A stretch of 64,000 bases of DNA from an uncultured SAR116 cluster alpha proteobacterium (lineage in GTDB: Bacteria; Pseudomonadota; Alphaproteobacteria; Puniceispirillales; GCA-002684695). Position 1 is the stretch's first letter. Each line of letters starts with the position of its first letter. The notes under the pieces are model-generated. The model saw nothing but the letters and a program-made list of their open reading frames with translations. It searched no databases and had not been told where the DNA came from. The stretch lies in the NCBI GenBank assembly GCA_902612965.1, contig CACMFN010000002.1, positions 94,456 to 158,455 on the forward strand, written 5' to 3'. Position numbers and translations under genes: made by a program. Positions 22,230-47,245 of the stretch are shown piece by piece.

Positions 22230-23615
22230 TCAAACTATTTTTTCTAAATTAATCTTAACCTCATAAAATGCCTCATCCATAATTTTAATAGCAGTATCTA
22301 TAATACTTTTGTTTATTATTAATGGAGGTGCAATTCTGATAAGATTTATTACTGGTATCCCTGGAATTAGATTTCTTTTTAAGCACTCATCGTAAAAAAT
22401 ATCTGTGACTTGACTAAATGGAACTTTAGTTTTTTTATCCTTTACAAATTCTAAAGCAATCATAGAACCCATTCCTCTTACGTCTCCAATAAAATGATAT
22501 TTATTTTTCAACTCATTTAAGCACTTTTTAAGGTATAAGCCATTTTCTTCGCTTTGTTTTTCAATATTATTTTCCTCATGAACTTCAAGAGTAGCAAGAC
22601 CAGCTCCACATGCCATAGGATTCCCTCCAAATGTTGTAGATGGTCCAATTTTAGAAATTTCATCTTTAAATTTATTTTTAGTTAAAACGGCACTCATTGG
22701 AAATCCATTTCCAATACCTTTACCAAGTATTGAAATATCTGGCTCAATATTCCAATGTTCAGTACACATCCATTTGCCAGTTCTGCCACACCCGGTTAAA
22801 ACTTCATCAGTGATTAACAAAATATTTCTCTTTTCACAAAATTTCTGTAATTTTGGAAAGAAATCATCTGGAGGCATAATCCCTCCACCCCATCCCTGTA
22901 TTGGCTCAACTAAAAAGGCTGCAACATCACCTGTAGTTGATTCTTTAATAAACATGTCATAAAAATCAAAATATTTATCTGTGTCAATAAACCCGTTTTT
23001 ATCTTCCCAAATTGGTCTATATAAGTTTGGTCGTGGAACCATATAATAACCAGGCATTCTGGTTGAACCATTAAACTTAGAAAGCCTGCCTAAAGATGCT
23101 GAACCAAGTGTTTTTCCATGATGGTCAGAAAAGCAGGAAATAATTTCATTTTTACCTGTTATGGCTCTTGCCATTTTTATAGCTATTTCAACACCTGTTG
23201 TCCCATTATCATAAAGATGGATATTATCAAAAATATTATCAGTTTTCTCAGATAACTTTTCCATGTAAGAAACTTTTACTGGAGTTATATAATCGTGACA
23301 ATTCATTAGCTTCTTTGCCTCAATACTAACAGCTTCAGCTACTTTAGGATGAGAATGGCCTAAGTTTGTTACATAAATACCAGAACCAAAGTCTAAAAAT
23401 AAACTTTCATTTTCCTCAACTAAAAAAGGTCCCTTACCTTCTAGAAACACTAGTGGCTGAATGTCAGTTCTTCCGTGCCTAGATGTATGATTAAAAGCTC
23501 TCTCAGTTAATGCAGAAACACTATTTTTTTTATTTAAAACTTGGTCCTGGAATCTATAAGTTTCTCCTTCATACCAATTTTGATCATATTTAACATTTTT
23601 ATAATTATAATTCAT
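22230..23615 (-). CDS. Class III PLP-dependent aminotransferase
   Basis: 461 residues from ATG 23615, which overlaps the rfbF stop by 11 bases. LFLDFGSGIYVTNLGHSHP, LLITDEVLTGCGRTGKWM (aspartate that holds the PLP ring nitrogen) and SILGKGIGNGFPMSA (Schiff-base lysine) are diagnostic. The family includes glutamate-1-semialdehyde mutases and omega-aminotransferases acting on open-chain or sugar carbonyls. Position directly after rfbF-rfbG suggests it aminates an intermediate of the CDP-sugar or of an acyl substituent; this is inference, because class III enzymes are uncommon in hexose pathways. Confidence 0.82.
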   Translation of the reverse strand: MNYNYKNVKYDQNWYEGETYRFQDQVLNKKNSVSALTERAFNHTSRHGRTDIQPLVFLEGKGPFLVEENESLFLDFGSGIYVTNLGHSHPKVAEAVSIEAKKLMNCHDYITPVKVSYMEKLSEKTDNIFDNIHLYDNGTTGVEIAIKMARAITGKNEIISCFSDHHGKTLGSASLGRLSKFNGSTRMPGYYMVPRPNLYRPIWEDKNGFIDTDKYFDFYDMFIKESTTGDVAAFLVEPIQGWGGGIMPPDDFFPKLQKFCEKRNILLITDEVLTGCGRTGKWMCTEHWNIEPDISILGKGIGNGFPMSAVLTKNKFKDEISKIGPSTTFGGNPMACGAGLATLEVHEENNIEKQSEENGLYLKKCLNELKNKYHFIGDVRGMGSMIALEFVKDKKTKVPFSQVTDIFYDECLKRNLIPGIPVINLIRIAPPLIINKSIIDTAIKIMDEAFYEVKINLEKIV

Positions 23616-24384
23616 ATTCGGTCCATGGTGGTTGTTCTTTCTGTGAAAGCTTTTCAAGGGTTTCAAGTTCTCTTTTCGTATCTACACATTGCCAGAAACC
23701 ATTATGTTTAAACACTGACAATCTATGCATTTGAGCTATTTTTTCTAAAGGCTCTTTCTCGAAAATAGTCTTATCATCTTCTATATAATCAAATACTTCA
23801 GGTTCTACAACCATAAAACCACCATTTATCCAACCCTCTTTTGTTTGCTGACTAGGCTTTTCTTTAAATGTTTTTACAATATTGTCTTCAATATCTAACA
23901 TGCCAAATCTTATTGGTGGATGAACACCTGTCATAGTTATTAAAGATTTATGTTTTTTGTGAAATAATATTAATTTATCAATATTAACATTTGAAAGACC
24001 ATCACCATAAGTTAGGAGGAAAGTCTCATTGCCAATATATTTTTGGAGTCTTTTTATTCTTCCACCTGTCATGGAATTTTTACCTGTATCAATAATTGAA
24101 ACGTTCCAGTCAACATTATCTTTATTATAAGTGGACGAATTACCACTTTTTAAATCAACTTTAAAATCAGAGTTTAAAATTCTGTAATTTAAAAAATAGT
24201 CTTTTATAATTTCAGCTTTATAACCTGCTGCAATAAAGAATTCTTTGCAGTTAAAGGATGCGTACCCTTTCATTATGTGCCATAAAATTGGTCGACCACC
24301 AATATTTACCATTGGTTTAGGTATTATATTTGTATGTTCTGATAATCTGGTACCATATCCACCAGCTAATATTACAACTTTCAT
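23605..24384 (-). CDS. rfbF: Glucose-1-phosphate cytidylyltransferase
   Basis: 259 residues. VVILAGGYGTRLSEHTNIIP is the nucleotidyltransferase signature with the catalytic arginine. PKPMVNIGGRPILWHIM, ETFLLTYGDGLSNVNID (metal-binding aspartate) and GWINGGFMVVEPEVFDYI follow. This pattern (H-T-N-I-I-P-K-P-M) is specific enough to call CTP:glucose-1-phosphate cytidylyltransferase, the first step to CDP-dideoxy or CDP-deoxyhexoses. ATG at 24384 overlaps the stop of the RmlC-like gene as ATGA, so the two are translationally coupled. Confidence 0.92.
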   Translation of the reverse strand: MKVVILAGGYGTRLSEHTNIIPKPMVNIGGRPILWHIMKGYASFNCKEFFIAAGYKAEIIKDYFLNYRILNSDFKVDLKSGNSSTYNKDNVDWNVSIIDTGKNSMTGGRIKRLQKYIGNETFLLTYGDGLSNVNIDKLILFHKKHKSLITMTGVHPPIRFGMLDIEDNIVKTFKEKPSQQTKEGWINGGFMVVEPEVFDYIEDDKTIFEKEPLEKIAQMHRLSVFKHNGFWQCVDTKRELETLEKLSQKEQPPWTEYEL

Positions 24385-24815
24385 TTTACAAAACTCCAAT
24401 CGAAATTTATTTTTTCAAGTTCAATATTATCAGCCTCTCTAGGGTTGTGAATGAGATTAGAAACATTAAGCAAAATAGACTCTTTATTATGAAGTGACTG
24501 AAAAGCAACCCATATCATTGGTGGTATAGTTAATCTAAAATATTTATCGCACGATAAAATATAACTATTGGTATTAATATTTTCAATGTCTCTGTCATCA
24601 TAGAGAACAAATCTAATTTTTCCTAAAGGCACAATTAAATTAAGTGTCATTGATTTATGTCTCTTCCAACCTTTAATACATTTTGGATAAATTGTTGAAA
24701 AATATGCCTCTTCAAAACCTTCATAACCTAAATCTGATTTCTTCATAGCATGAAGGACCCTGCCTTTTGCAGAGTTAATTATATCAAGTTTTGTTAATAA
24801 TGGTTTTTTTAACAT
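24381..24815 (-). CDS. RmlC-like nucleotide-sugar 3,5-epimerase family protein
   Basis: 144 residues. Resembles dTDP-4-dehydrorhamnose 3,5-epimerases in pattern: GFEEAYFSTIYPKCIKGWKRH, LNLIVPLGKIRFVLYDDR, then a YFRLTIPPMIWVAFQSL segment, as in the cupin-like RmlC barrel. It is shorter than RmlC (about 180). Placed between rfbG and rfbF, it may epimerise CDP-4-keto-6-deoxyglucose rather than a dTDP-sugar (inference). The usual catalytic histidine can only be tentatively placed at the W-K-R-H segment. Confidence 0.7.
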   Translation of the reverse strand: MLKKPLLTKLDIINSAKGRVLHAMKKSDLGYEGFEEAYFSTIYPKCIKGWKRHKSMTLNLIVPLGKIRFVLYDDRDIENINTNSYILSCDKYFRLTIPPMIWVAFQSLHNKESILLNVSNLIHNPREADNIELEKINFDWSFVK

Positions 24816-24836
24816 GATTGACCTTTTAAAGTAATG

Positions 24837-25916
24837 TTAAATATTTCTTGATACAAAAAGATCTTGATAAGATCTAATTTGTTTACAGGTTGTTTCGAAC
24901 ATTAAACTTTTATTTTCATAGAATTTTTTATACCAATCTGCTGTAAATTGAATTGTTTCAGCAAATGAAAGAGTAGACTTCCAATTCAAGTAAAAAGAAG
25001 CTTTATCACAATTTAGTTTTAATAACCCGGCCTCATAATTTGCATTACTGTTGTCATCATGTATTTCCCAGTTAATATTTTTCCAGTATTTTGACATTTC
25101 AATAATAAGATCTAATACTGAGTAATTTGAATATGGGTCAGGCCCAAAATTAAATGGTTCACCGTGTAAGCTTGAATTTATCTCTAAGTTTCTTGCGAAA
25201 AGCAAATATCCACTTAATGGCTCCAAAACATGTTGCCACGGTCTAGTTGAATTTGGGTTACGAACAATTACCTTTTCATTTTTTCCCCAGGCTTTAATAC
25301 AATCTGGAACAATTCTATCTCTTGCCCAGTCTCCTCCTCCTATAACATTACCTGCTCTAGCAACACCAATAGAAATTAAATCCTGATTTTTAAAAAAAGA
25401 TTCTACATATGATTTGATGATAATTTCTGTTGCACCTTTAGAGGCACTATAAGGGTCTTTTCCTCCCAGAACGTCTGTTTCTTTATAACCCCATACCCAT
25501 TCATTGTTTTTATAGCTTTTATCACTAGTAATCAAAATAACTGAACATTTGTTTTTTAGTTCTCGAAGTGCTTCGAGAATATTTAAAGTACCTATCATGT
25601 TTATTGAGAAAGTTTCTTCAGGGTTGTCGTATGACTTTTTTACTAATGGTTGTGCAGCCAAGTGAAAAAGAAAGTCAGGTTTAAAACTATTGATTGTCTT
25701 TTTAATTTCAATTTGTTCTCTAATATCCAAAATTTTTTCATTAATTAAGTTTTTTAATCCAATCACTTCATAATTTGAAGGTTTTGTTGGTGGATCTAAA
25801 GAAACACCCATTACATCCGCACCCATCATCTTAAGCCAAACACATAACCAACTTCCTTTAAAACCAGTGTGCCCCGTAACTAAAACTTTTTTATTTTTAA
25901 ATGTATTCTCAAACAT
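24837..25916 (-). CDS. rfbG: CDP-glucose 4,6-dehydratase
   Basis: 359-residue extended SDR. KVLVTGHTGFKGSWLCVWLK is the NAD site characteristic of RfbG, VILITSDKSYKNNEWVWGYK and DPYSASKGATEIII give the catalytic T/S-Y-x-x-x-K, and GGGDWARDRIVPDCIKAW completes the family pattern. It converts CDP-glucose to CDP-4-dehydro-6-deoxyglucose. It lies upstream of the RmlC-like gene and rfbF in one operon. No rfbH (3-dehydrase) is present in the window, so the usual dideoxyhexose branch is not complete here. Confidence 0.92.
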   Translation of the reverse strand: MFENTFKNKKVLVTGHTGFKGSWLCVWLKMMGADVMGVSLDPPTKPSNYEVIGLKNLINEKILDIREQIEIKKTINSFKPDFLFHLAAQPLVKKSYDNPEETFSINMIGTLNILEALRELKNKCSVILITSDKSYKNNEWVWGYKETDVLGGKDPYSASKGATEIIIKSYVESFFKNQDLISIGVARAGNVIGGGDWARDRIVPDCIKAWGKNEKVIVRNPNSTRPWQHVLEPLSGYLLFARNLEINSSLHGEPFNFGPDPYSNYSVLDLIIEMSKYWKNINWEIHDDNSNANYEAGLLKLNCDKASFYLNWKSTLSFAETIQFTADWYKKFYENKSLMFETTCKQIRSYQDLFVSRNI

Positions 25917-25940: not shown

Positions 25941-27284
25941 CTATTTTTTTATATATTCTTTTAAAAGGCTGTTTTTTATACCTAATTTTATATAATAGGA
26001 TTTCTTAAAGAGTTTATATTCATATATACCTTCTCCGATTTTCTTAATTTTTATACCTTCCCACAAATTTTGTTCCATAACTTCAAAAACCTCGTCATTT
26101 GAAATATGTATGATATTGCAACCTCTCTCTAAACCCTCAACCACAGCCGCAGTTGCTCCTATCATAACAGTAAGCTTAACATTACTATTAATATCAAAGA
26201 TGTTCATATACTTTTTAATAAGTTCATTAATTTCATTCTCAAACTGTAAACTTTTCTTTGGTGAAGATGGCGCAGGATGGTTTCTTACAATCAGTAGAGG
26301 GATTGAATTTTTCCTGCAACTCTTAAAAAATTTTTCTAATTTAATGAGATAGATTTTATGATTAGAAAAACTATGAGGTAAAAAAATTTTACGATTAAAT
26401 TCCAACTTATCAGAAACTAAATATCTGGTTGATTTTTGAATATCAATCCTTTTTTTTGGCCATTTTAGATAATTAATTAATAATGATTTTATACCTGCGC
26501 CATGAACTACTATTTTATCAGGCGCACCATATCTATAAAGATATTCTGTTGGTAGTGCATTTGGTAAGGAATGTAAGTAGCCAATTACCTCTGCAGTTTG
26601 TTTTTCATTTTTTATCTCTTGATAAATGGCATGTTGCCAGTTTTGAGCTTCATAAGGCAAAAAATATTTATCATTTTGGTATAAAAATCTATTTTCTCTC
26701 ATGATTGATATCAACTCTTTGGAAAAAATAGTGTCTATATTCCAAAACATATAAAATTTCTTATAAAATGATTTGAAAGTCATAACATGCCTAATAAAGA
26801 AAACTATTGGCCTTAAAATATTAAAATTTCTTCTGCTGCTTATTTGAGAAAAAATAAGAATGTTTTTATCAAGGGTTTTTGGTAATTTATTATCAATTGA
26901 AATAAGAAAGAATGTTAACATTCTTGTTTTTTTTGAGTTTACTCTAAAATATCTATCATTAAACGAACCATCTTTATTAAAATCATCTAACTTACACCAA
27001 GAAAAAAGAACTGCCTTTGATTTAAGTTTAAATTTGTTTTTGTTAAATAAAAAATATTTATCTACAAAACCTAAAATCAAAATTGCTTTGATTATAGAAT
27101 AAATATATTTGATTTTGCTAGTTAAACCTAAATATGCTTTTAATCTAATATTTCCCAAATGATTTGGGGACCAAGAATTAATACAATTAAAGGGACTATA
27201 GACTAGACTTTCATTGCTTTGGTTTTTTATTAATCCAATTGATTTTTTAATTAATATTTCTTGATTGATGTTCTTTTTTTTCAT
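25941..27284 (-). CDS. Unknown surface-carbohydrate transferase candidate
   Basis: 447 residues, unrecognised. The N-terminal 190 residues are basic with hydrophobic stretches. The C-terminal half looks like a GT-B Rossmann domain: EVIGYLHSLPNALPTEYLYR, PDKIVVHGAGIKSLLI, a PLLIVRNHPAPSSPKKSL segment and KLTVMIGATAAVVEGLERG near the end, where a glutamate follows an alternating small-residue loop. The R-N-H-P motif and this ending recall TIGR04326-like surface-carbohydrate proteins, but the match is from memory and weak. It sits between the epimerase at 27334 and rfbG. Confidence 0.5.
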   Translation of the reverse strand: MKKKNINQEILIKKSIGLIKNQSNESLVYSPFNCINSWSPNHLGNIRLKAYLGLTSKIKYIYSIIKAILILGFVDKYFLFNKNKFKLKSKAVLFSWCKLDDFNKDGSFNDRYFRVNSKKTRMLTFFLISIDNKLPKTLDKNILIFSQISSRRNFNILRPIVFFIRHVMTFKSFYKKFYMFWNIDTIFSKELISIMRENRFLYQNDKYFLPYEAQNWQHAIYQEIKNEKQTAEVIGYLHSLPNALPTEYLYRYGAPDKIVVHGAGIKSLLINYLKWPKKRIDIQKSTRYLVSDKLEFNRKIFLPHSFSNHKIYLIKLEKFFKSCRKNSIPLLIVRNHPAPSSPKKSLQFENEINELIKKYMNIFDINSNVKLTVMIGATAAVVEGLERGCNIIHISNDEVFEVMEQNLWEGIKIKKIGEGIYEYKLFKKSYYIKLGIKNSLLKEYIKK

Positions 27285-27333
27285 TGTAATTATTGATAAT
27301 TACTTAAAGGAAGTCTTGTTTTTTAATTGGTTA

Positions 27334-28263
27334 TTAAAGTTTGTTAATGCTTTCCCACATTTCTTGCAGACCTTTATTAAGTGGAATTTTAGGTTTATAA
27401 TTTATTAAATTTGAAATTTTATCTAAATCAGCGTAGCAACCTTTCAGATCTCCAGGTGTGCCCTCAATAACATTAATCTCAATTTTACTTTTACCAACAA
27501 TTGAAGCTATTGAGTTAATTAATTCTTCAATTGTTGTTTTTGTTCCAGAACCTAAATTAAAAATTTCATTACATGCTATTCCATGTAAACATAAATCCCA
27601 AGCCTCAACGACATCATTTATATTTATTAAATCCCTATACCTATCAAGAGAACCCTTTATTTCCATTTTATCTTTTTTTATAATCATATTCATAAAAATA
27701 CCAACTATGCCTTGGTCATTTTTTGTAATATCTTGACCTTCACCATAAACATTAAACATTCTTAGAGAATTCCATTTAATACCTTTTGGTTGTGCATAAT
27801 TCATTAAAAGGTGCTCACACGCCAATTTAGATGTCCCATAGATAGACTTAGGCTTACAACAAAATTCCTCTGAATATTTTTCTTTTCCTTTGTGGTCTCC
27901 ATAAACAACAAAAGAGGAAGCAAAAAGAAGTTTTGGTACTTCATTGAACAAACAAAAATCTATAATATTTAAAGTACCTAGTATATTTAAGTTTATATCA
28001 TTGTATGGTTCTTGAAATGATCTTGGGCCTGATGACTGACCTGCAAGGTGTAGAACTGCATCTAAACCCTTAATTTTTAGATTTCTTAACGTTTTTGAAT
28101 CTGTAATATCCACTCGCAAAACCTCTAAAAACTTTAATTCTTGAGGGATAATAGTTCCGGGATATTCCAAAATTAGAATTTCAATGTTTTTACCAAGAAG
28201 TCTTTTTATAATACGTTTGCCAATAAATCCAAATCCGCCGGTTACAAGAACTTTTTGTATCAT
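27334..28263 (-). CDS. NAD(P)-dependent nucleotide-sugar epimerase/dehydratase
   Basis: 309-residue extended SDR. VLVTGGFGFIGKRIIKRLL is the G-x-x-G-x-x-G dinucleotide site, LLFASSFVVYGDHKGKE the catalytic serine region, and SIYGTSKLACEHLLMNYA the Y-x-x-x-K pair. Near residue 170, FNVYGEGQDITKN is typical of the UDP-glucose 4-epimerase-like superfamily. The substrate is not determined. Two bases separate it from the aminotransferase gene upstream. Confidence 0.8.
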   Translation of the reverse strand: MIQKVLVTGGFGFIGKRIIKRLLGKNIEILILEYPGTIIPQELKFLEVLRVDITDSKTLRNLKIKGLDAVLHLAGQSSGPRSFQEPYNDINLNILGTLNIIDFCLFNEVPKLLFASSFVVYGDHKGKEKYSEEFCCKPKSIYGTSKLACEHLLMNYAQPKGIKWNSLRMFNVYGEGQDITKNDQGIVGIFMNMIIKKDKMEIKGSLDRYRDLININDVVEAWDLCLHGIACNEIFNLGSGTKTTIEELINSIASIVGKSKIEINVIEGTPGDLKGCYADLDKISNLINYKPKIPLNKGLQEMWESINKL

Positions 28264-28265
28264 TT

Positions 28266-29336
28266 TTAATTTAAATTTAGTTTTTCTATTTCTGAATAAA
28301 ATCTTTTCATATCTTCCTTAGGACCTATGGTTATTAAAACATATTTTGAAAAGCTTCCAGAAAATGGACCTTTTAAGTAAATTTTTTTGTTTTTTAAAAA
28401 TTCAACAAAATTTATAGCTTTATTGTTGTTCAATAAATCAAGAAGTAAATAATTACCAAAATTTCCATATGATTTGATTTTATGTTTTTTTAAAAATTGT
28501 TTTGTGTATTCTCTACTTATAATTACATTTGCATTATATTCATTCACAATTTGAATATTGTCTAAAACATATTCAGCAACAATATTTGAAAGAGAGTTGC
28601 TTTCATGAGCAAGTCTTGTTTTTGCCAATAAACTAATATTTTGAGCATTACTTACTAAATAACCTAACCTTATAGAAGGCAAACCAAAACCTTTTGAAAA
28701 AGTTCTTGCAACCACTACATTTTCATATTTACCTATTAATGGAATACCAGTTTCTGCACCATATAAGTGGTAAGCTTCATCAATAACAAATAAGCAATTT
28801 ATGGAAAGTAGTTGTTTTGCCATTTCCTCAAGCTCCTTTAAATTAAAGCAGCTTTCAACTGGTTGATTGGGATTAGGCAGAAAAAACATTGTTGGTCTTT
28901 TGATTAAAAACTTTTCAAATTCCTCAACATTAAAACTAAGATCATCTTTGAATTCAATTTCTTCTAGATTTACCTGAAATAAATCTGCATATATTCTGTA
29001 CATTGCATATGTTGGTGACAACACACCTACTAAATCTCCTGGCTCTGTCATAATTTCATACAAGGTTTTTATACCACCATCAATGCCCGAGGTAAGTGTC
29101 AATTCTTCTTCTTTAACATTTATGTAATTACTAATTTTAGAATATAAATTTGATGGTTCTGGGTATGTTGACAAAAACCAATCCGGTTGATTGTTGAAAA
29201 TATCACTCATCATCGTCTTGGGCCAAAACCCAACTTTTTCATTTCTGTCTAAACGTAACCCATTTTCTAAATCTCTTCCTTCTGAAACTCGAAATCTTTG
29301 AATATTATTAAGATAATTTTTTCTTTGTATGAACAT
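28266..29336 (-). CDS. Class I/II PLP aminotransferase, HisC-like
   Basis: 356 residues. The fold-type I pattern resembles histidinol-phosphate aminotransferase: LRLDRNEKVGFWP, LTLTSGIDGGIKTLYEIM, CLFVIDEAYHLYG (PLP-stacking aspartate and tyrosine) and VVARTFSKGFGLPSIRLGY with the Schiff-base lysine. In a glycan locus next to a HAD phosphatase, it probably aminates a small phosphorylated or CMP-linked precursor and is unlikely to be the histidine enzyme, as no other his genes are present. The precise substrate is unknown. Confidence 0.78.
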   Translation of the reverse strand: MFIQRKNYLNNIQRFRVSEGRDLENGLRLDRNEKVGFWPKTMMSDIFNNQPDWFLSTYPEPSNLYSKISNYINVKEEELTLTSGIDGGIKTLYEIMTEPGDLVGVLSPTYAMYRIYADLFQVNLEEIEFKDDLSFNVEEFEKFLIKRPTMFFLPNPNQPVESCFNLKELEEMAKQLLSINCLFVIDEAYHLYGAETGIPLIGKYENVVVARTFSKGFGLPSIRLGYLVSNAQNISLLAKTRLAHESNSLSNIVAEYVLDNIQIVNEYNANVIISREYTKQFLKKHKIKSYGNFGNYLLLDLLNNNKAINFVEFLKNKKIYLKGPFSGSFSKYVLITIGPKEDMKRFYSEIEKLNLN

Positions 29337-29396
29337 TTTATGACCTTGTATTTTGATACTTTATAATTTTATATCTTTATTTAATCAAATATTATT

Positions 29397-30056
29397 TTAG
29401 TGTATTTTTTTTATAAGCTTTTCGAAATTGTTAATTTTTTCAATACCTTTGGGTAACTTATCATTATTTTTTTTTTCAACTCCTAAAAATTTCACATTAG
29501 CCTCCAAAGCCCCATTATAATCAGATATACTATCTCCAACCATTAAAACTCTTTTTTTGTCTAGATTGTTATTTTTTATAATACCTTTGATGATTTTGCC
29601 CTTGGTTTTAGGTGACCCATAAATATCTTTAAAATAATTTCTCATACCTCTTTTATTTATAATTTTTTCTAATTCCTTTTGTGGTGTAGCCGATGCAACA
29701 AAAAAATTTATAACTTCATAGTATTTATTTAAAAACTTTTCTACGCCATCTAAATATGGTGCTTTGACAATTAAGTCTAATACCAAACTTGAAAAATTGG
29801 ATGAAAGCTCACCTTCAATTTGCTCATCAAAGTTTTGTTTCAATATTTTTGTTTGAAAAAATTTAAATTTTTGATTTCTAGGCACGCCTTCATTATGTTC
29901 ATGATATTTAACAACTCTTTCTTCAACTTCTTTTCCATACTTTTTGTATAATAATGAAAACGCATTTTTTTTGATTTCTGCACTATCTACTAAAGTACCA
30001 TCAAAATCAAAAATTATAGCATCATATAAAAAATTACTTTTATTAACTTCTATCAT
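29397..30056 (-). CDS. HAD-superfamily phosphatase
   Basis: 219 residues. AIIFDFDGTLVDSAEIKKN carries the nucleophile and acid aspartates, FFVASATPQKELEKII motif II, and VLMVGDSISDYNGALEANV the Mg-binding motif IV. The alpha-helical cap between motifs I and II fits the phosphoglycolate phosphatase/beta-phosphoglucomutase subgroup. It is first in the 12-gene minus-strand run; its promoter should lie in 30057-30204. An A10 tract in the coding strand corresponds to plus-strand T10 at 29467-29476. Confidence 0.8.
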   Translation of the reverse strand: MIEVNKSNFLYDAIIFDFDGTLVDSAEIKKNAFSLLYKKYGKEVEERVVKYHEHNEGVPRNQKFKFFQTKILKQNFDEQIEGELSSNFSSLVLDLIVKAPYLDGVEKFLNKYYEVINFFVASATPQKELEKIINKRGMRNYFKDIYGSPKTKGKIIKGIIKNNNLDKKRVLMVGDSISDYNGALEANVKFLGVEKKNNDKLPKGIEKINNFEKLIKKIH

Positions 30057-30121
30057 TTTGATGTAAAATTTATTTTATAATTACTTTATAGTTATATAGG
30101 AATTATTAAATGAAACACTTA

Positions 30122-30150
30122 TTGTGTAAAATTATTTTTAGAAATATAAT
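30122..30150 (+). promoter_or_regulatory. Candidate sigma70-type promoter for the cupin-SDR-cytidylyltransferase operon
   Basis: TTGTGT at 30122-30127 and a perfect TATAAT at 30145-30150 are separated by 17 bases, 55 bases before the ATG at 30205. The -35 matches consensus only at TTG, and the gap is A/T-rich, so chance is possible. The same 148-base divergent gap must drive the large minus-strand operon; TTTATA at 30074-30079 and 30085-30090 would be weak minus-strand -10 boxes. Confidence 0.4.
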
Positions 30151-30190
30151 TTAATTTATTAATTTAGATAAAATTAAAGCTCAGTTTTTC

Positions 30191-30196
30191 AGAGGA
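30191..30196 (+). promoter_or_regulatory. Shine-Dalgarno sequence AGAGGA
   Basis: AGAGGA lies eight bases before the ATG at 30205 and is one of the clearest ribosome-binding sites in the window, where most genes show none. It supports the chosen cupin start and suggests this operon is well translated. A second good site, GGAGG at 31362-31366, precedes the cytidylyltransferase ATG at 31373. Confidence 0.6.
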
Positions 30197-30204
30197 ATTA
30201 ATAA

Positions 30205-30648
30205 ATGGATAATAAAATACAAAATGAAGTTCATGATGATAATGTAAGAAAAGTACTAAAAGATGACGGTGTTAGTATTATAAGTACGGAAGAAAAATAT
30301 GAGAATCTGTCCAAAACATCTTTAGAGGAGATAAAATCAAAATTTGGAAAAGCTTCTTGGGCAGTAAGAGTAATTTACAATGAGTTATTTGGCGGAGTTC
30401 TTATTCAACAACAACCTGGAGAGGGTAACCGTTTGCATTACCATCCTGATGCTGATGAATGCTGGGTGATTTTAGAAGGTGAATGGGAGTGGTATATAGA
30501 AGGTGAAGGTAAAAAAATTGTAACAGTTAATGATATCGTAGTTGTTAAAAAAGGTATAAAGCATCAAATTAAATGTATTGGGGAGAAAACAGGAATCCGA
30601 TTAGCAATAACAAGACCTGATGTAAATCATGTTTATGAAAAAAATTAA
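30205..30648 (+). CDS. Cupin-domain protein
   Basis: 147 residues with one cupin barrel. RLHYHPDADECWVILEGEWE contains the metal-binding H-x-H...E of motif 1, and VNDIVVVKKGIKHQIKC holds the motif 2 glycine and histidine. Members act as metal-dependent isomerases, epimerases or binding proteins. Its ATG follows a strong ribosome-binding site, and its stop shares a base with the next start (TAATG), so it is coupled to the SDR. It is probably an isomerase step before cytidylyl activation (inference). Confidence 0.75.
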   Translation: MDNKIQNEVHDDNVRKVLKDDGVSIISTEEKYENLSKTSLEEIKSKFGKASWAVRVIYNELFGGVLIQQQPGEGNRLHYHPDADECWVILEGEWEWYIEGEGKKIVTVNDIVVVKKGIKHQIKCIGEKTGIRLAITRPDVNHVYEKN

Positions 30649-31376
30649 TGTTTAAAAATTTAAAATTTAATTTTAGAAATAAAACAGTGCTTGTAATTGG
30701 AGGGAGCAGAGGCATTGGTGAAATGCTTGTGAAACAATTTAATCTAAGTGGAGCAAATGTTTATTACGCATCAAGAAACAAAAGTAGAAACAATAGTGAA
30801 ATAAGCCATATTCAAACAGATTTAGCTGATGAAAATAGTATTATAAAACTTTTTGAGTTTTTAAATAATATAGGGAAGCTTGATATTATGATAAATACTG
30901 CAGCAATAAATTTTTCCAAATCCTTTACAGATATTGATTATAAAGAATGGAAGGAAGTTATTGATATAAATTTAGACTCTACATTTTTAGTTTCAAAATT
31001 GGCTCTAAATATTATGAAAAAAAATGGCAATGGAAAAATTGTAAATGTGTCATCTATTGCTGGCAGATCAAAAAGCATTGCAAGCGGCGCACATTATGTT
31101 TCAAGCAAAGCAGGAATTATTGGATTAACAAGACAGATGGCATATGAAGTTGCTAAATATAATATAAATGTAAATGTAGTATGTCCTAGTCAAACTATGA
31201 CAGATATGCTTATGCAAACAATGAGCAAAAATGATATCTTAGAATTAGAAAAAAAAATTCCTCTTAGAAGAGTTGCATACCTTGAAGAACAAATTGGACC
31301 AATCATGTTTTTATGTAGCGATGCAGCATCATATATAACTGGTGCCTGTATAGATGTTAATGGAGGACAACTATGA
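30648..31376 (+). CDS. Short-chain dehydrogenase/reductase
   Basis: 242-residue classical SDR. TVLVIGGSRGIGEMLVKQF is the cofactor-binding T-G-x-x-x-G-I-G variant, MINTAAINFS the N-A-A-x-x segment, KIVNVSSIAGRS the catalytic serine and HYVSSKAGIIGLTRQM the Y-x-x-x-K. ITGACIDVNGGQL is the conserved C-terminus. It is a sugar- or ketone-reducing oxidoreductase related to FabG. The start overlaps the cupin stop by one base and the stop overlaps the next start as ATGA, a tight three-gene coupling. Confidence 0.85.
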   Translation: MFKNLKFNFRNKTVLVIGGSRGIGEMLVKQFNLSGANVYYASRNKSRNNSEISHIQTDLADENSIIKLFEFLNNIGKLDIMINTAAINFSKSFTDIDYKEWKEVIDINLDSTFLVSKLALNIMKKNGNGKIVNVSSIAGRSKSIASGAHYVSSKAGIIGLTRQMAYEVAKYNINVNVVCPSQTMTDMLMQTMSKNDILELEKKIPLRRVAYLEEQIGPIMFLCSDAASYITGACIDVNGGQL

Positions 31377-32113
31377 ATATTGAAGGAAACATAGCAGCAG
31401 TAATTCTAGGGAGGAAAGGGTCTACTGGTTTTCCAGGTAAAAATACAATGAAAATTTTAGATAAACCAGCATATGAATATGCAATTAATGCTGCAAAGAA
31501 GTCAAAGTATGTAACTAATATTTTTTGTTCTACTGATATTGATGAAATAATTGATAGAAGAAATGAATTAAATGTAGATATTATATTAAGACCATCACAC
31601 CTACTTACTGCAGAAGCTTTATTTGAAGATGCCGTAGAACACGCCTACCAAGACATTAAGAAAAGATTAGGTGGCAAAATAAAGTATTTTGTTATTTTAA
31701 TGGCCAATGCCGTAACAATTAATAATAAACTTATTGATGAAGCTATTGAAAAATTAGAGGCTGATGAAGAAGCCGACTCTGCTGTAACAGTTTCAGTTTT
31801 CAACATGTATAGCCCATTAAGAGCAAGAAAACTTGATTCAGATGGTTATTTAAAGCCTTTTGTTCCGTTTAGCGCTTTTGGAGATGAAAAAACATTATCT
31901 TGCGACAGAAATAGCCAAGGCGACGTTTTTTATGCTGATATGAGTCACTCTGTTTGTAAATCTAGGTGTATCGAAAAAATAGAAGAGGGACTTCTACCAC
32001 AAAAATGGATGGGGAGAAAAATTTTACCTATTTTAAATAAAGATGGCTGTGATATTGACGAAAATTGGCAACTTGACATGTCTATAAGATGGTTGGAAAA
32101 TAATAAAATTTGA
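31373..32113 (+). CDS. NeuA-like CMP-sugar (acylneuraminate-type) cytidylyltransferase
   Basis: 246 residues. VILGRKGSTGFPGKNTMKIL is the R-x-G-S-x-x-x-P-x-K-N CTP-binding motif, NIFCSTDIDEI follows, and SCDRNSQGDVFYADMSHS lies near residue 185. The family activates nonulosonic acids or KDO-like acids as CMP derivatives. The spacing and sequence after the first motif differ from typical NeuA, so the substrate may be unusual. GGAGG six bases before the ATG gives strong initiation. Its stop abuts the convergent methyltransferase. Confidence 0.8.
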   Translation: MNIEGNIAAVILGRKGSTGFPGKNTMKILDKPAYEYAINAAKKSKYVTNIFCSTDIDEIIDRRNELNVDIILRPSHLLTAEALFEDAVEHAYQDIKKRLGGKIKYFVILMANAVTINNKLIDEAIEKLEADEEADSAVTVSVFNMYSPLRARKLDSDGYLKPFVPFSAFGDEKTLSCDRNSQGDVFYADMSHSVCKSRCIEKIEEGLLPQKWMGRKILPILNKDGCDIDENWQLDMSIRWLENNKI

Positions 32114-32869
32114 TTAAATTAAATTAGAAATTTTATAAACTTTAAAAGATTCGCCATTGTAAGGAAAACTTTCTATTTGTTCTAATCCAACTTTTTTAAA
32201 CAAGAACTCCAATCTTTCATTATCTCTTATCCAACCCCAAAACTGAATTTTGTTCTTTTTGAAGAGTAAATAATATATTGGCCTTATAATTATCTTAATT
32301 TTATCAAAAAAAGATAATTTCGTAGAAGGTTTTTTATAATCATTTTCAACATCATTAAAGGAATGGTCAACACTTATTAAAATACTGTCCTTATTTAAAC
32401 ATTGTTTTATTTGAGAAAAAAAATCTATAAAGTTTTTATTATCAAAAGCATATGTGAATTGAACACAAAAAACTACGTCATATCTTTTTTGAGGTAAAAT
32501 AGAATGATATTTTAAGCTTGGGTTTTTTTTATATAAAAACTTTCCTCCAAGTTTTGAAAAATCATAACATTCCAAAAAAATATCAGGCCTTAAATTAAAA
32601 ATTTTATCCTCAATAAAACCTAAACCTGAGCCTAAAGATAAAACTTTTGAATTTTTTTTCATCATTAAAGAAAGTTTTTTATATGTTTCTAGTTTTTGTT
32701 TCCTCCATAAACTAGGCAGTTCATCCATATCTTTATACTTAATGAAAAGTACTTCATAAAAACTATCATAAAATAATTCTCCAGCTACTCTAAATAAAGT
32801 TAGATTACATTTTAATTTTGTAAACTTTATTCCCAACCATTCATTTTGATAAAATGGAAATTGTATCAT
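32114..32869 (-). CDS. Class I SAM-dependent methyltransferase-like protein
   Basis: 251 residues from ATG 32869, with GTG 32884 as an alternative that overlaps the upstream stop. SKVLSLGSGLGFIEDKIF is motif I, LECYDFSKLGGKFL the acidic region and RYDVVFCVQFTYAFDNKN motif IV. The N-terminal 70 residues and the basic C-terminus are unassigned. It is the last gene of the 32-53 kb minus-strand block. Some homologous folds lack methyl transfer, so activity is inferred. Confidence 0.68.
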   Translation of the reverse strand: MIQFPFYQNEWLGIKFTKLKCNLTLFRVAGELFYDSFYEVLFIKYKDMDELPSLWRKQKLETYKKLSLMMKKNSKVLSLGSGLGFIEDKIFNLRPDIFLECYDFSKLGGKFLYKKNPSLKYHSILPQKRYDVVFCVQFTYAFDNKNFIDFFSQIKQCLNKDSILISVDHSFNDVENDYKKPSTKLSFFDKIKIIIRPIYYLLFKKNKIQFWGWIRDNERLEFLFKKVGLEQIESFPYNGESFKVYKISNLI

Positions 32870-32873
32870 TTTT

Positions 32874-33743
32874 TTATAAATCACCTTGAGATTTCATTTC
32901 ATGGATCAAGTCGAGAAGACCTTGCCCTAAATCAATATGTGTTTTAGGCGTAAACTTTATTCCTATCATAGGCTTATAAGCATAAGGTGTTCTTACATAA
33001 TGACCAGAATAACTCTCATTTCGAAATTCAATTTTATCTTTAATTCCAATTATTTCCCCCAACATATTTAGTATTTCAAAAACTCTATGTGATTGTTGGC
33101 CTGTTAAAACAATATTTTTATTTTTGAACTCGTCAGATAGAATCTCAATACTGCTTTTAGCAGCATCAATCACATGTATGTATTCTCTAATTGCATTTAT
33201 ATCGCCTTGATATGAAATTTTATCATTTTTAATAGCATCCTTAATTATTCTATATACCCCATTATCTGGCCCCGACCTTGGGCCGTAAAGTGATCCAAAC
33301 CTTAAAATTGTATAGTCAAAAAACTTTTTATACTCTTCTACATAAAATTCTGAAGCAATTTTACTACATTTATAAAAGCCTCCTTCACGACTATTTACAT
33401 ATTGAGAGCTTGCATAAATAAATCTTTTAACTTTATTTTTTTTTGCTGCCTCTAGAGCATTAACATTACCCAAAATGTTTAATTTTACAGTCTCTATTGG
33501 TTTATTAAGAGCCTCATTCAAATCAGATAATCCACCATAGTTAAAAACAATTTCGCATCCTCTTAAGGCATCATTTAATGAATCAATGTTGGTAATATCA
33601 CCTTTTATCATTTGTTGACTTTTTTTAATCCAAGGGGAGTCTTTAATATCATATATAATGACTTCATAATTAAGTTCAGAAAGTTGATCAGCCAAATGAG
33701 AGCCTAAAAATCCTGACCCACCAATTACACATACTTTAGCCAT
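32874..33743 (-). CDS. NAD-dependent nucleotide-sugar epimerase/reductase
   Basis: 289-residue extended SDR. VCVIGGSGFLGSHLADQLS is the cofactor loop, RFIYASSQYVNSREGGF the serine region and FYKCSKIASEFYVEEYK the Y-x-x-x-K pair. The substrate domain has LRFGSLYGPRSGPDNGVYR. It ends within four bases of the methyltransferase and lies 19 bases downstream of the 2-hydroxyacid dehydrogenase, consistent with consecutive oxidation/epimerisation steps. Confidence 0.8.
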   Translation of the reverse strand: MAKVCVIGGSGFLGSHLADQLSELNYEVIIYDIKDSPWIKKSQQMIKGDITNIDSLNDALRGCEIVFNYGGLSDLNEALNKPIETVKLNILGNVNALEAAKKNKVKRFIYASSQYVNSREGGFYKCSKIASEFYVEEYKKFFDYTILRFGSLYGPRSGPDNGVYRIIKDAIKNDKISYQGDINAIREYIHVIDAAKSSIEILSDEFKNKNIVLTGQQSHRVFEILNMLGEIIGIKDKIEFRNESYSGHYVRTPYAYKPMIGIKFTPKTHIDLGQGLLDLIHEMKSQGDL

Positions 33744-33762
33744 TTAATAGATTTTCTTTAAT

Positions 33763-34758
33763 TTAAACATAAAGATTTTGAATTTCATATTCTGTTTCTG
33801 GTACTGGTCTATTAATTTTCTCACCTTTTACAAATCGAACCACTTCCTCTACAGCCTCTATTTCCATTCTTTCTCTACAATCTATTGACATTGAACCCAT
33901 ATGACTGGTTAAGATACATCTGTCAATTTTAGATAATGGACCGTTGTAAGGTTCATTATCAAAAACATCAATAGCTGCACCTCCAAGGTGCCCTTCAAAC
34001 ATAATGTTAAAAAGATCATTTTCATTAATAATGCCTCCCCTTGAAGTATTAATTATTAATGCATCCTTTTTCATCATCATAAGTTCTTTTTTATTGATTA
34101 AAGAGTTAGTATGCGGGGTTTTAGGAATATGAAGGCTTATTAGGTCTGAATTTTTATATATTTCTTCTTTGCCAACCCAATCAATTTTTAAAGCTGGAGC
34201 AATATCAGTATTATTAATGATTTTAGAATCAATATCATTAGCCAAAACTTTTGGAGAGCCAAAAGCAGAAATTCTTCTTAAAACTCTTGATCCAATTCGA
34301 CCCAGTCCTATAATTCCAATCGTAATTTCAGAAAATCGTTTTCCAAATATTCTCTTCCAATCACCGTTGTGCATTAACATATTTGAAATGTGTATCGATC
34401 TTAATAATGATAACATTAATCCTAGTGTTAATTCTGCAACTGCAGGAGCGGGAGCATCTGGAGTATATGCTACTAGAATATTTCTTTTTTTTGCTTCGTT
34501 AAGATCGACATTATCTACGCCAATCCCAACTCTTGAAACCAATTTTAACTTATCTGCGTTGCTAATAACTTTCTTTGTTATTGGTTCAGTTCCAGCTACG
34601 AGCAGATCAAATCCTTTAATCATTTTAGCTAGTTCATCTTCTGTAAGTTTTCGATTTAAAGGATTTATTACATAATCAACATTTGCATCTTTCATTAATT
34701 CAATAGGAAGATTATTTTTTTCACCAAATGGAACTGTTGTGACTAAAGCTTTAAACAT
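33763..34758 (-). CDS. D-isomer-specific 2-hydroxyacid dehydrogenase (SerA-like)
   Basis: 331 residues. ITIGIIGLGRIGSRVLRRI is the NAD site, LIINTSRGGIINENDL has the substrate-binding arginine, AIDVFDNEPY the glutamate and CILTSHMGSMSIDCRERM the catalytic histidine. It lacks the ACT/regulatory extension of long phosphoglycerate dehydrogenases, so it is the catalytic core only. In this context it could oxidise a phosphorylated hydroxyacid on the way to an unusual CMP-activated compound, with the HisC-like aminotransferase and HAD phosphatase nearby (inference). Confidence 0.82.
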   Translation of the reverse strand: MFKALVTTVPFGEKNNLPIELMKDANVDYVINPLNRKLTEDELAKMIKGFDLLVAGTEPITKKVISNADKLKLVSRVGIGVDNVDLNEAKKRNILVAYTPDAPAPAVAELTLGLMLSLLRSIHISNMLMHNGDWKRIFGKRFSEITIGIIGLGRIGSRVLRRISAFGSPKVLANDIDSKIINNTDIAPALKIDWVGKEEIYKNSDLISLHIPKTPHTNSLINKKELMMMKKDALIINTSRGGIINENDLFNIMFEGHLGGAAIDVFDNEPYNGPLSKIDRCILTSHMGSMSIDCRERMEIEAVEEVVRFVKGEKINRPVPETEYEIQNLYV

Positions 34759-34791: not shown

Positions 34792-36621
34792 TTATAATTC
34801 TAAATTCAATTTTAAAAGATTATCTAAAGTTCCATTATTTACATATGCTTTAGAAAATGATGTGTCCCTTAATTTTACAATTTTATCAGTATCATATTTT
34901 TTTATTGCATCAAGTAATTTTTTAAGATTAGTAAAACAGTAAACCCTTTTCTTTAATAGTTTTAGTGCATATTTAGAAAATGGATGTATATCATCAAGTA
35001 AAAGAAAAATATCAACATCGTAATTTATAACGTCATAAAGTGGCGTTGAAACTAATTCCATAATAACAAGCTTAGGAGAGTATTGCCGTAAAAAAAGATC
35101 AAAATTAATTTGAACTATTTTTGTATTCTTTAAGTTTTTTAATTTTTGTGAAAATGAAAAATTATAATTATTGAAATCCTTAAATGGCTTTACAATATTT
35201 AAATTATCATCTCTTTTTTCAATCTCATCAAGTATTTTATATTGAGCGGTTGAAATAATACTCTGAGGTGTTCTAGCAGCCTCATTTATATAAACACAAT
35301 TACTAATGGGAAAAACAATATCAACATTTTTTTTAAAATCTGCATTTGATGCGTCTAAATTTTTTCCTATATTAATAAATTTGCATCTTGGTTTTTCATG
35401 GTATGTCTTATAAAAAATTTTATCATCTGATGCATAACTTAAATAATAATCGCATCTATCAAAATCAGTAATATAATGATGTTTATTTAACATTACTTGA
35501 CTAAAATAACATCCCCCATGTTGTTTTCCAATAACAGGAATTTTCATTTCTAAAGCATAATCTATTATTATGTTCCAATGAGGTACATAAATTGTAGGAA
35601 CCTCCCATGCAATACAACTAATCTTATAATTTTTAAAAATTTTATCGAAGTATAATATTAGATCAAAATATTCTTCAAAGTTGTTCTGAAAATCAATTAT
35701 CAATTTATTTTCAATACTTCCATTATCATATTTTGTAGAAGTTTTTTTTATTATGTCTTTTATTTGATCAAAAACAGGTTTATCTGGTTTATAATTATTT
35801 ATATAAAAACTTTTTTCTTTACCAAAAAATAATTTTACTGGTGTTATATTATATAAACAAAAAATTTTCTCAACAATTGACTTGGGCGAAGGTTGAAAAA
35901 TGATACCAAATTTTTCTTCTTTGTTTTTTAATTTTCTGGAAAAAAAGTATTTATTAAAAAAGTATTTTAATTTTGATAAATTATAATTGTCTCTATTTAG
36001 CGCTCTCTTAGCCCAAACATTTAAAAAATTTTTAATTTTAGTTACATGTATATAGTCTGATAACCTTTCATTATCAGAGTGTACATTACTTGAAATAATA
36101 AATTGGTCATTATTGTTATAAAAAACGTTAATACTAGCATTTCTGTTTTTTAAAACGCTAACCAATTCATCTTCTAGTGAATAAATTAATGTATTACTAT
36201 TAATTTTTCTATTCAAAAATAAATCCACATTATTTGATTTAGTCTGTTTTTTTGTTATTTTTTTGGCAAAGAGTTTCAAAAGAAATATTGAAAGCAACTC
36301 ATACCTTCTATAAGCAAAATATAATGACTTGAATATATTTATTTTTCTCCAGTTTAAGACTTTACAAATCTTTATACTGATTTCTTTATCAAGTATGGAA
36401 CATGTATTTTCAAAATTATCTGAAGAAAGTGTGATTGCTTTAATAGCTTCATTAGGTGTTATAAAGGCTGTAAAATCAATACATTTAATATTATGTGATT
36501 CTAAAAAATCAACAACGCTATAATGTAATGAATATATTTCATATTTTTGATTATCATTGTAATGATTATCAAGAAAATCATTTGCTGAAGCTACAGTATC
36601 AATAATAACCAATGAATTCAT
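34792..36621 (-). CDS. Large unknown transferase-like protein (possible GT-B/LIC12162-like)
   Basis: 609 residues, family not certain. The N-terminal 250 residues are unassigned and rich in lysine and tyrosine. The C-terminal half has GT-B features: MKIPVIGKQHGGCYFSQ, CDYYLSYASDD, VDIVFPISNCVYINEAAR, and a YSPKLVIMELVSTPLYDVI segment ending with KYALKLLKKRVYCF. The K-Q-H-G-G motif and overall length recall LIC12162-type putative transferases involved in surface carbohydrate. It lies between the acyltransferase and the hydroxyacid dehydrogenase. It may transfer the CMP-activated compound; this is inference. Confidence 0.5.
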   Translation of the reverse strand: MNSLVIIDTVASANDFLDNHYNDNQKYEIYSLHYSVVDFLESHNIKCIDFTAFITPNEAIKAITLSSDNFENTCSILDKEISIKICKVLNWRKINIFKSLYFAYRRYELLSIFLLKLFAKKITKKQTKSNNVDLFLNRKINSNTLIYSLEDELVSVLKNRNASINVFYNNNDQFIISSNVHSDNERLSDYIHVTKIKNFLNVWAKRALNRDNYNLSKLKYFFNKYFFSRKLKNKEEKFGIIFQPSPKSIVEKIFCLYNITPVKLFFGKEKSFYINNYKPDKPVFDQIKDIIKKTSTKYDNGSIENKLIIDFQNNFEEYFDLILYFDKIFKNYKISCIAWEVPTIYVPHWNIIIDYALEMKIPVIGKQHGGCYFSQVMLNKHHYITDFDRCDYYLSYASDDKIFYKTYHEKPRCKFINIGKNLDASNADFKKNVDIVFPISNCVYINEAARTPQSIISTAQYKILDEIEKRDDNLNIVKPFKDFNNYNFSFSQKLKNLKNTKIVQINFDLFLRQYSPKLVIMELVSTPLYDVINYDVDIFLLLDDIHPFSKYALKLLKKRVYCFTNLKKLLDAIKKYDTDKIVKLRDTSFSKAYVNNGTLDNLLKLNLEL

Positions 36622-38412: not shown

Positions 38413-39954
38413 TTACTTGTACTCCTCACACCAATTTTGAGCAATTTTTATTGCAGTCAAATGGGCTGTCACAGATCTATTTTCAATTTGATCGAATTCT
38501 AATAAAAATGGAAGAAGAGAAATAAAATGACACATTTCATTAAATTTTACAATACGCATAAAGTTATCATTAGTAAATGAATGGTTGAAAGTATTTAAAA
38601 CTAATTTTTCAAATGGTTTTTTTGTTTTTTCTAAAAGTTCTATTGTCTCTTTCTGGTCGATGATAAATGTGTAGTGATCATTATTTCCTTTAGTTGTTTT
38701 TGAACTTCTTATCAACCTACTAGAAATCATCTCATATTTACCATTAAGAGAGTGCCATATTTTTCCTAAATCATAAAAATAATCGCAATAATCATAACCT
38801 CTAGGATCAATCAAAATAAATTCTTTTGTCTTTGTATTTACAAGTACATTAGAATAATGCATGTCTGCATGACCCCATTTACCAATACTTTCTGGGTTCA
38901 CTGGATTTCTCTTTATAATTATTTTTATTTTATTAATTAAATGATACAAACTTTCATAATCTTTATCCTCAATGATAATCTTTTCAGCTTCTAACATTTT
39001 TTTATGGATTTTAGATTTTGTTTTTAATTCAAGTAGTCTTCTTTGCATCCTATCAAGATGCATGGTTTCAACATAATTATTAGGAGCATTAATTTTGTCT
39101 ATTGAATATAGATCTCTGCAAAATTTTACTAATATCTCATTCCATGAATTTAACTCTTCTTCTGAAACTTTTTTTGCTATTATAAGACGTCTAAGTGTAG
39201 GCAAGTTATAATGTTGCATCTCATAATAGACTTTGTCTTTACTTTCTTTATTTGATTTAATAATTTTAGGAAAGTTTGGCTTTAATTTATCAGGCAAGCT
39301 TTCTATAAAATTAATCTCATCAACTAGTTTTTCCATTCTTTCTTGTGTAGCTTCTTTTAAAACTCTATTTACTACAATTACATTTGTTTGAGTCCCACTT
39401 CCACTCTCATAGCCAAAACTTATATTTTTATTTTGATTAGATATATTAGTTATTGATTTAACTATATTTAATATATTTCCCCAGTTATTTTCGAAAATAA
39501 TAAATGGTATTTCTAACTTTTCTAATGCTCTCATGAAATTATTACACGGTTTTGGATTTAATCTTTCCCAATTATATTTCATATCATCAATATGAAATAT
39601 AGGCTTTAGTTCTTTGAGAATTTCTATTTTATTATCATTTTGATTAACTAAAAAAATATCATCTATTGGAAAATCATTTTTCTCAAGCCACTTAATCGTT
39701 ATATTTAAAAAAGTCTCTTTCCTTGCTGAAACCCAGGCAATTTTAAAATGTTGATTAAGTTTCTTTATTGTTTCAACAGAGCCTTCAATAGGTTTATCTT
39801 GAAGCATTATTTCTTTGTCAAAAACTTTGGGATCAATAATATTTTTTTCTTTATTAAAATATCTTCTAAACCTTGTATCTTGGTCTGCAACAGTATTGTC
39901 AATATCAACAGATATATAGTTTTCATTTTTATTAATAGAAAATTTTTTCTTCAT
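38413..39954 (-). CDS. Fusion of HAD-type hydrolase and APH/choline-kinase-like phosphotransferase
   Basis: 513 residues with two enzymatic halves. Residues about 10-165: YISVDIDNTVADQDTR (D-x-D nucleophile), IAWVSARKETFLNI (motif II) and IFHIDDMKYNWE (motif IV), a HAD hydrolase of the 5'-nucleotidase-like kind. Residues about 185-513: a kinase-like domain with GYESGSGTQTNVIVVNR as glycine loop, HADMHYSNVLV near 362 as Brenner catalytic loop and FILIDPRGYDYCD as the metal-binding aspartate. The pairing implies phosphorylation and dephosphorylation in one sugar- or alcohol-handling step. ATGA overlap couples it to the AsnB-like gene. Confidence 0.75.
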   Translation of the reverse strand: MKKKFSINKNENYISVDIDNTVADQDTRFRRYFNKEKNIIDPKVFDKEIMLQDKPIEGSVETIKKLNQHFKIAWVSARKETFLNITIKWLEKNDFPIDDIFLVNQNDNKIEILKELKPIFHIDDMKYNWERLNPKPCNNFMRALEKLEIPFIIFENNWGNILNIVKSITNISNQNKNISFGYESGSGTQTNVIVVNRVLKEATQERMEKLVDEINFIESLPDKLKPNFPKIIKSNKESKDKVYYEMQHYNLPTLRRLIIAKKVSEEELNSWNEILVKFCRDLYSIDKINAPNNYVETMHLDRMQRRLLELKTKSKIHKKMLEAEKIIIEDKDYESLYHLINKIKIIIKRNPVNPESIGKWGHADMHYSNVLVNTKTKEFILIDPRGYDYCDYFYDLGKIWHSLNGKYEMISSRLIRSSKTTKGNNDHYTFIIDQKETIELLEKTKKPFEKLVLNTFNHSFTNDNFMRIVKFNEMCHFISLLPFLLEFDQIENRSVTAHLTAIKIAQNWCEEYK

Positions 39955-44157: not shown

Positions 44158-44164
44158 AATTTTC

Positions 44165-45043: not shown

Positions 45044-45048
45044 AATAT

Positions 45049-47237: not shown

Positions 47238-47245
47238 TTTATCCT

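Follow-up and report, generated by a model that had tools for sequence, protein, structure and literature searches.

The present study analyzes a gene module in a 64,000-nucleotide stretch of DNA (the window; contig CACMFN010000002.1, positions 94,456 to 158,455) from an uncultured SAR116 cluster alphaproteobacterium. We put at somewhat better than even, roughly 0.56, the probability that the genes at 25941-34758 make a 2-ulosonic acid activated with cytidine monophosphate (CMP) for a surface polysaccharide, without NeuB or KdsA as a dedicated partner. The product, with a carboxylate next to the anomeric keto carbon, would probably be shorter than sialic acid. To our knowledge, described CMP-sugar routes rely on a NeuB- or KdsA-type condensation with phosphoenolpyruvate (PEP) for their 2-keto acid, and among the papers searched there was none joining a cytidylyltransferase with a 2-hydroxyacid dehydrogenase or HpcH in a polysaccharide context. 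The module is real, co-conserved and ahead of annotation, most likely a variant of the CMP-ulosonate pathways, and there is a fair chance that a broad undescribed class of pathways lies behind it.

The cytidylyltransferase and its conserved partners

Profile searches place the cytidylyltransferase at 31373-32113 (CYTIDYLYLTRANSFERASE) in the CMP-ulosonate synthetase family without a match to any named equivalog. It scored 56.7 bits against a PF02348 gathering score of 22.6, but stayed under the cutoff of PseF (TIGR03584; 61.7 vs 205.7 bits) and of the best KdsB-type model (TIGR00466 and related; 32.6 vs 255). An AlphaFold model built from eight relatives had a mean pLDDT of 84, with residues from about 146 to 182, the presumed sugar-binding part, poorly defined; its first 44 PDB matches were all synthetases of CMP-sialic acid, CMP-pseudaminic acid, CMP-Kdn or CMP-Kdo, and Foldseek aligned it with Vibrio cholerae NeuA at E 1.5e-18. 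On alignment with Neisseria meningitidis NeuA, K23, N24, R73, D227 and D229 were invariant and R14 was kept as Arg or Lys, positions that we take to be equivalent to the CTP- and metal-contact residues of NeuA. Where NeuA has K142, the relatives show an invariant Arg (R150), and R179 is also invariant. The enzyme thus shares with known CMP-ulosonate synthetases the fold, the CTP-binding Arg/Lys/Asn/Arg and the DxD metal pair, and differs from them in a sugar-contact loop that is MANAP-like rather than QPTSP, in having no NeuB or KdsA partner gene and in forming its own clade. In a tree of 31 family members it stood with ten relatives in that single clade (support 98/98), apart from KdsB-like and NeuB-paired enzymes. 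Judged from family and predicted fold, it would probably transfer CMP to a 2-ulosonic acid. No other member of this clade turned up in the 136 genomes from the host's order; five further cytidylyltransferase matches in the order reached about 92-100 bits, against 464.

The block of genes around this enzyme recurs, wholly or partly, in three other proteobacterial genomes. The complete relative G517 carries it as a single gene run with dehydrogenase (58% identity), short-chain dehydrogenase/reductase (SDR, 55%), HAD (38%), cytidylyltransferase (53%), epimerase (35%) and HisC (33%), together with a TIGR04326-family transferase; G304 holds dehydrogenase, cytidylyltransferase, HAD and SDR, and G244 the last three as far as the contig end. 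Across the relatives that have them, identities were 54-58% for the dehydrogenase at 33763-34758 (G304, G517), 46-55% for the SDR at 32874-33743 and 31-37% for the HAD at 29397-30056 (both in all three genomes, the HADs adjoining the same cytidylyltransferase). The HisC-like copy in the window is closer to its counterpart in the G517 module (170 bits) than to the next HisC of the host (92 bits). A dehydrogenase lay near 7 of 11 window-type cytidylyltransferase loci, the window itself excluded, and near 2 of 17 other PF02348 loci (Fisher p=0.010). The cytidylyltransferase-dehydrogenase pair was also found in L003 and the viral contigs L030-L033, three of which had a radical SAM/SPASM protein, an SDR and a TIGR04326-like transferase in the same run. 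The original prediction, made by a reader of the sequence alone, had suggested looking for this gene set in other genomes, and it proved to be co-conserved in G517, G304, G244 and virus contigs, contrary to the refuting outcome named there, in which homologues would belong to separate known pathways and show no co-conservation. Named isolate phages and plasmids, when searched, held no module. The radical SAM/SPASM protein, absent from the window, was a recurrent neighbor of the same cytidylyltransferase in L030, L032, L033, L019 and L021, and its best PDB relative was BtrN, a cyclitol dehydrogenase.

A second block, consisting of cupin, SDR and cytidylyltransferase, recurs in viruses. With the cupin alone as query, 23 non-redundant viral loci were found; a cytidylyltransferase lay within 8 kb of the cupin in 20 of them, and the three genes were consecutive in 19. 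The cupin at 30205-30648 had 46-62% identity to viral-contig cupins, and the SDR at 30648-31376 up to 54% to viral cassette SDRs. In viral locus L102 the cupin (58%) and SDR (54%) stand together with a cytidylyltransferase, an aldolase, a dehydrogenase and an extended SDR.

Possible sources of the 2-keto acid

In viral contigs the cytidylyltransferase co-occurs above chance with dehydrogenase, cupin and HpcH/HpaI aldolase. Using the dehydrogenase alone as query, 21 non-redundant strong viral loci were found; a cytidylyltransferase lay no more than 8 kb away in 15, and an HpcH/HpaI aldolase was present in 10. Using the aldolase alone, 50 non-redundant viral loci were found, with a cytidylyltransferase within 6 kb in 38; the two genes were at most 200 nucleotides apart in 18 of 62 viral loci, redundancy included. 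Control loci around generic sugar SDRs had a cytidylyltransferase in 0/75, including 0/33 of those of at least 12 kb. In L188 and L201 aldolase, dehydrogenase and cytidylyltransferase follow each other with overlapping gene ends, L190 has cytidylyltransferase, aldolase, dehydrogenase and SDR, and the runs of L216 and L031 begin with a GAPDH-like gene, which in L031 is followed by HAD-like, cytidylyltransferase, HpcH/HpaI and dehydrogenase genes. Pfam confirmed PF02348 and PF03328 in the viral members tested, and the viral aldolases retain residues matching what we take to be the HpaI catalytic set. The HpcH/HpaI aldolase is a plausible substitute for NeuB in viruses.

A bacterial contig from the host's order (L098, 1-6407) carries in one run an MR/MLE dehydratase-like enzyme, a 2-hydroxyacid dehydrogenase, an FAH-family protein, a cytidylyltransferase, a PhyH oxygenase and a large unknown protein. 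It has the appearance of a further NeuB-independent way to a CMP-linked sugar acid. The enzymes of the viral aldolase loci and of L098 all belong to 2-keto sugar-acid chemistry. The same families (MR/MLE dehydratase, HpcH/HpaI aldolase, FAH hydrolase, SDR) serve in the catabolism of 2-keto-3-deoxy sugar acids; here, in polysaccharide clusters and virus genomes, it is CMP activation and not sugar breakdown to which they are coupled.

The single NeuB of the window, and of the host, is at 43156-44157, 11 kb from the module, in agreement with the original prediction, which saw none near the first part. It is accompanied by a second cytidylyltransferase (48255-48932), which in the 31-member tree groups with the NeuB-linked enzyme of G517 and one enzyme of G304; the host has a separate KdsB-like gene besides. 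G517 likewise has one NeuB with an adjoining cytidylyltransferase, one KdsB-like gene and the window-type enzyme about 12 kb away. In the Pelagibacteraceae assembly G535, which is incomplete, a window-type cytidylyltransferase and a KdsB-like gene were present and no NeuB was detected at E<=1e-5. A NeuB-type condensing enzyme was thus paired with the window-type cytidylyltransferase in none of the host (G000), G517 and G535, a genome-level comparison that is limited by incompleteness for the host (83% complete, with the window on a 204-kb contig), G244, G304 and G535, and unaffected for the complete G517. Because NeuB has its own cytidylyltransferase beside it in the host and G517, and none was detected in G535, NeuB does not explain the window enzyme. 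These second, NeuB-linked cytidylyltransferases and the viral loci support the earlier proposal of a CMP-activating pathway with no NeuB partner. The genes at 43156-48932 form a second CMP-sugar-acid pathway in the window, with NeuB, formyltransferase-like genes, an epimerase, a DegT aminotransferase, a Gfo/Idh oxidoreductase and the cytidylyltransferase just described. Many viral contigs (L212-L237) have a divergent 2-hydroxyacid dehydrogenase beside NeuB, a WecB/NeuC-like epimerase and a cytidylyltransferase.

Candidate transferase, proposed pathway and alternatives

The gene at 25941-27284, 49 bp from the epimerase gene, is the likely transferase of the module. It has no Pfam or NCBIfam family and no match to any solved structure in a PDB sequence search; by hhalign it aligned with the profile of module transferases from elsewhere (A3, TIGR04326-type) at 92.6% probability. 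The transferases of that profile share a KxHP motif, and their KPHP aligned with RNHP in the window protein, the sole carrier of (K/R)XHP among 59 open reading frames in the window. One chance motif in about 21,000 residues would be unsurprising, so that it is the alignment and not the uniqueness of the motif that carries weight. CMP binding by this motif is described for sialyltransferases and retaining Kdo transferases (PMC12887879), and the module transferases resemble both groups (WbbB GT99 and KpsC GT107 among the latter) in carrying it. The only PDB matches of the A3 profile were to the Kdo transferase WbbB at E ~0.5, which is not significant, and an AlphaFold model of the TIGR04326-type family (pLDDT 38.7) was uninformative and was not used. 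The original prediction had instead pointed to a large unknown transferase just beyond the dehydrogenase. The 609-aa protein encoded there (34792-36621) does match no Pfam or NCBIfam family; as a candidate for the module transferase it was dropped, having no similarity to the TIGR04326-type profile, and the gene on the other side of the module is the likelier one.

In the pathway that we infer, including the exact sugar, the order of steps and the host's source of 2-keto acid, the SDRs, epimerase and cupin would shape sugar-phosphate or sugar-acid precursors. The SerA-like dehydrogenase may then give the 2-keto acid, either directly, through oxidation of an aldonic acid at C2, or by providing hydroxypyruvate for an aldolase of the HpcH/HpaI type seen in the viral versions. 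The HAD enzyme could strip a phosphate and, in this variant, the HisC-like enzyme could add an amino group; the cytidylyltransferase, to judge by family and fold, would link CMP to the anomeric hydroxyl, and the candidate transferase would pass the sugar acid to the polysaccharide. Hex-2-ulosonic acids occur in bacterial capsules, among them that of Escherichia coli K3 according to the title of a reference in PMC10433991, so this product class is chemically reasonable. The small-molecule product originally envisaged is probably wrong: what the surroundings, the transferase and the family of the cytidylyltransferase indicate is an acidic sugar destined for a surface polysaccharide. Such a module would resemble the NeuB/NeuA pathways for sialic, legionaminic and pseudaminic acid in placing a CMP-activated acidic sugar in a surface-polysaccharide cluster, and would differ in having no dedicated NeuB but a 2-hydroxyacid dehydrogenase, with an HpcH/HpaI aldolase in viral relatives. 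More broadly, and tentatively, since we hold it a little short of even odds, there may be an undescribed and widespread class of pathways, frequent in uncultivated viruses and found here and there in bacteria, in which an HpcH/HpaI aldolase or a sugar-acid dehydratase/dehydrogenase replaces NeuB/KdsA and CMP-activated short (about six-carbon) ulosonic acids serve as a new building block of surface glycans. A dedicated pathway that draws the carbon skeleton from another source would bring new acidic sugars to capsules, to O-antigens and to the glycan modifications of viruses. It would also imply that the sialic-acid annotation given to cytidylyltransferases in phage and metagenome data is often a misreading. 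The three-gene viral versions (aldolase, dehydrogenase, cytidylyltransferase) allow a direct test of the pathway.

Several observations weigh against a NeuB-independent ulosonic acid pathway. The host's 204-kb contig has no HpcH/HpaI homologue. HisC and the 27334 epimerase are common to one relative only (G517). The dehydrogenase was present in only 2 of the 23 viral cupin-cassette loci, so that two sub-modules, in part independent of each other, may be combined in the window, and the cytidylyltransferases of the viral cassettes mostly belong to another branch of PF02348 than the window enzyme. More divergent viral dehydrogenases, scoring under 150 bits, lie near a cytidylyltransferase in 14 of 17 loci, mostly with NeuB, and where NeuB is present the 2-keto group cannot come from them. 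The candidate transferase could instead serve the NeuB-derived sugar, and unlike retaining Kdo transferases it lacks their QXXXD nucleophile motif, for which reason it is not filed among them.

The module might alternatively support an ordinary nonulosonic (sialic-acid-like) pathway, in which the NeuB at 43 kb makes the acid and the cytidylyltransferase at 31 kb is a second or specialized CMP synthetase. The presence of that NeuB in the same cluster, the similar spacing in G517 and the company of NeuB with divergent viral dehydrogenases are consistent with this, which we nevertheless regard as unlikely given that NeuB has its own nearby cytidylyltransferase of a separate clade in both genomes, that G535 has the window-type enzyme with no NeuB detected, and that the frequent viral partner is HpcH/HpaI and not NeuB. 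Somewhat less probable again is that two separate pathways simply adjoin, a CMP-activation cassette of cupin, SDR and cytidylyltransferase and an unrelated sugar-acid or amino-sugar set of dehydrogenase, SDR, HAD, HisC and epimerase. The blocks do lie on opposite strands, and the scarcity of the dehydrogenase in cupin cassettes fits; against this, dehydrogenase and cytidylyltransferase share one gene run in G517, G304, L003 and viral loci, and the cupin cassette is joined with the dehydrogenase in L102 and L189.

A serine-style route, proposed in the original prediction and here leading to a CMP-linked amino acid or serinol-like compound, would account for a SerA-like dehydrogenase, a HisC-like aminotransferase and a HAD phosphatase occurring together. 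We consider this route very improbable, as all three enzymes fell far under the curated equivalog cutoffs (239.5 vs 454 for PGDH, 205.6 vs 276.6 bits for HisC, TIGR01141, and 19.1 vs 144 for SerB), the aminotransferase is missing from most module relatives (present in 1 of 3 that bear the block), and the closest folds of the cytidylyltransferase all act on ulosonic acids. A HisC-like enzyme, a phosphatase and CMP transfer also recall the FR-900098 and nucleotidyl-activated phosphonate pathways. That the module is of this type, with a HisC-like PLP enzyme and CMP transfer as in FrbH or PntC and a phosphonate-decorated polysaccharide as the result, has in our estimate hardly any probability, the best-matching folds of the cytidylyltransferase being CMP-ulosonate synthetases. 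PEP mutase was found neither on the window nor in G244, G304 and G280, and in the 83% complete host the sole match was a partial one, of isocitrate-lyase size; the phosphonate pathway was rejected.

Gene content and surroundings

The eight families within 27334-34758 that the original prediction named were all confirmed by Pfam, and a methyltransferase-like gene had been overlooked (Table 1). The SDRs, HAD, aminotransferase and dehydrogenase all retain their catalytic motifs. Overlaps of 1 bp between cupin and SDR and 4 bp between SDR and cytidylyltransferase suggest translational coupling of the cassette. A divergent promoter had been proposed at 30 kb; the divergent geometry is present, whereas promoter-like matches in the region of the gap were at chance level (73 found, 73.5 expected), so that it stands as geometry only.

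Table 1. Features of the module and its candidate transferase (window coordinates).
Feature	Position	Strand	Evidence
Probable CMP-sugar-acid transferase, predicted	25941-27284	-	Remote relative of TIGR04326-type transferases; RNHP at aa 334-337
NAD-dependent epimerase/dehydratase (extended SDR)	27334-28263	-	PF01370, 154 bits; 35% identity to G517 module gene
HisC-like PLP (pyridoxal phosphate) aminotransferase, not housekeeping HisC	28266-29336	-	PF00155 (Aminotran_1_2)
HAD phosphatase, DFDGT motif intact	29397-30056	-	PF13419 (HAD_2), 78 bits
Gap between divergent gene groups	30057-30204	.	148 bp
Cupin, cassette gene 1	30205-30648	+	PF07883 (Cupin_2)
Classical (FabG-type) SDR, cassette gene 2	30648-31376	+	PF13561 (adh_short_C2)/PF00106
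Cytidylyltransferase, CMP-ulosonate synthetase family, own clade	31373-32113	+	PF02348 (CTP_transf_3), 56.7 bits
Methyltransferase-like gene	32114-32884	-	PF13489, 21 bits, E 3e-4, under Pfam cutoff
Extended SDR (Epimerase) of conserved block	32874-33743	-	Pfam; S/Y/K triad invariant
D-2-hydroxyacid dehydrogenase, SerA/GhrB superfamily	33763-34758	-	PF02826/PF00389 (2-Hacid_dh_C/2-Hacid_dh); R/E/H triad intact; nearest solved structure a PGDH (phosphoglycerate dehydrogenase)

The module is set in a surface-polysaccharide cluster of group-4 type, with glycosyltransferases, a MurJ-type flippase, a Wzy-type O-antigen ligase domain, Wzz and SLBB/Poly_export, as well as the YjbF/YjbH of group 4 capsules. 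Farther along, at 38413-41405, are genes of 513 and 484 aa, one with a weak HAD-like match under the Pfam cutoff and the other family-less. Next to the module, 22230-25916 holds class III aminotransferase, nucleotidyltransferase and CDP-glucose 4,6-dehydratase-like genes that make up a CDP-sugar pathway; the dehydratase-like gene and its small neighbor are found again next to the module in L020 (57% and 37% identity).

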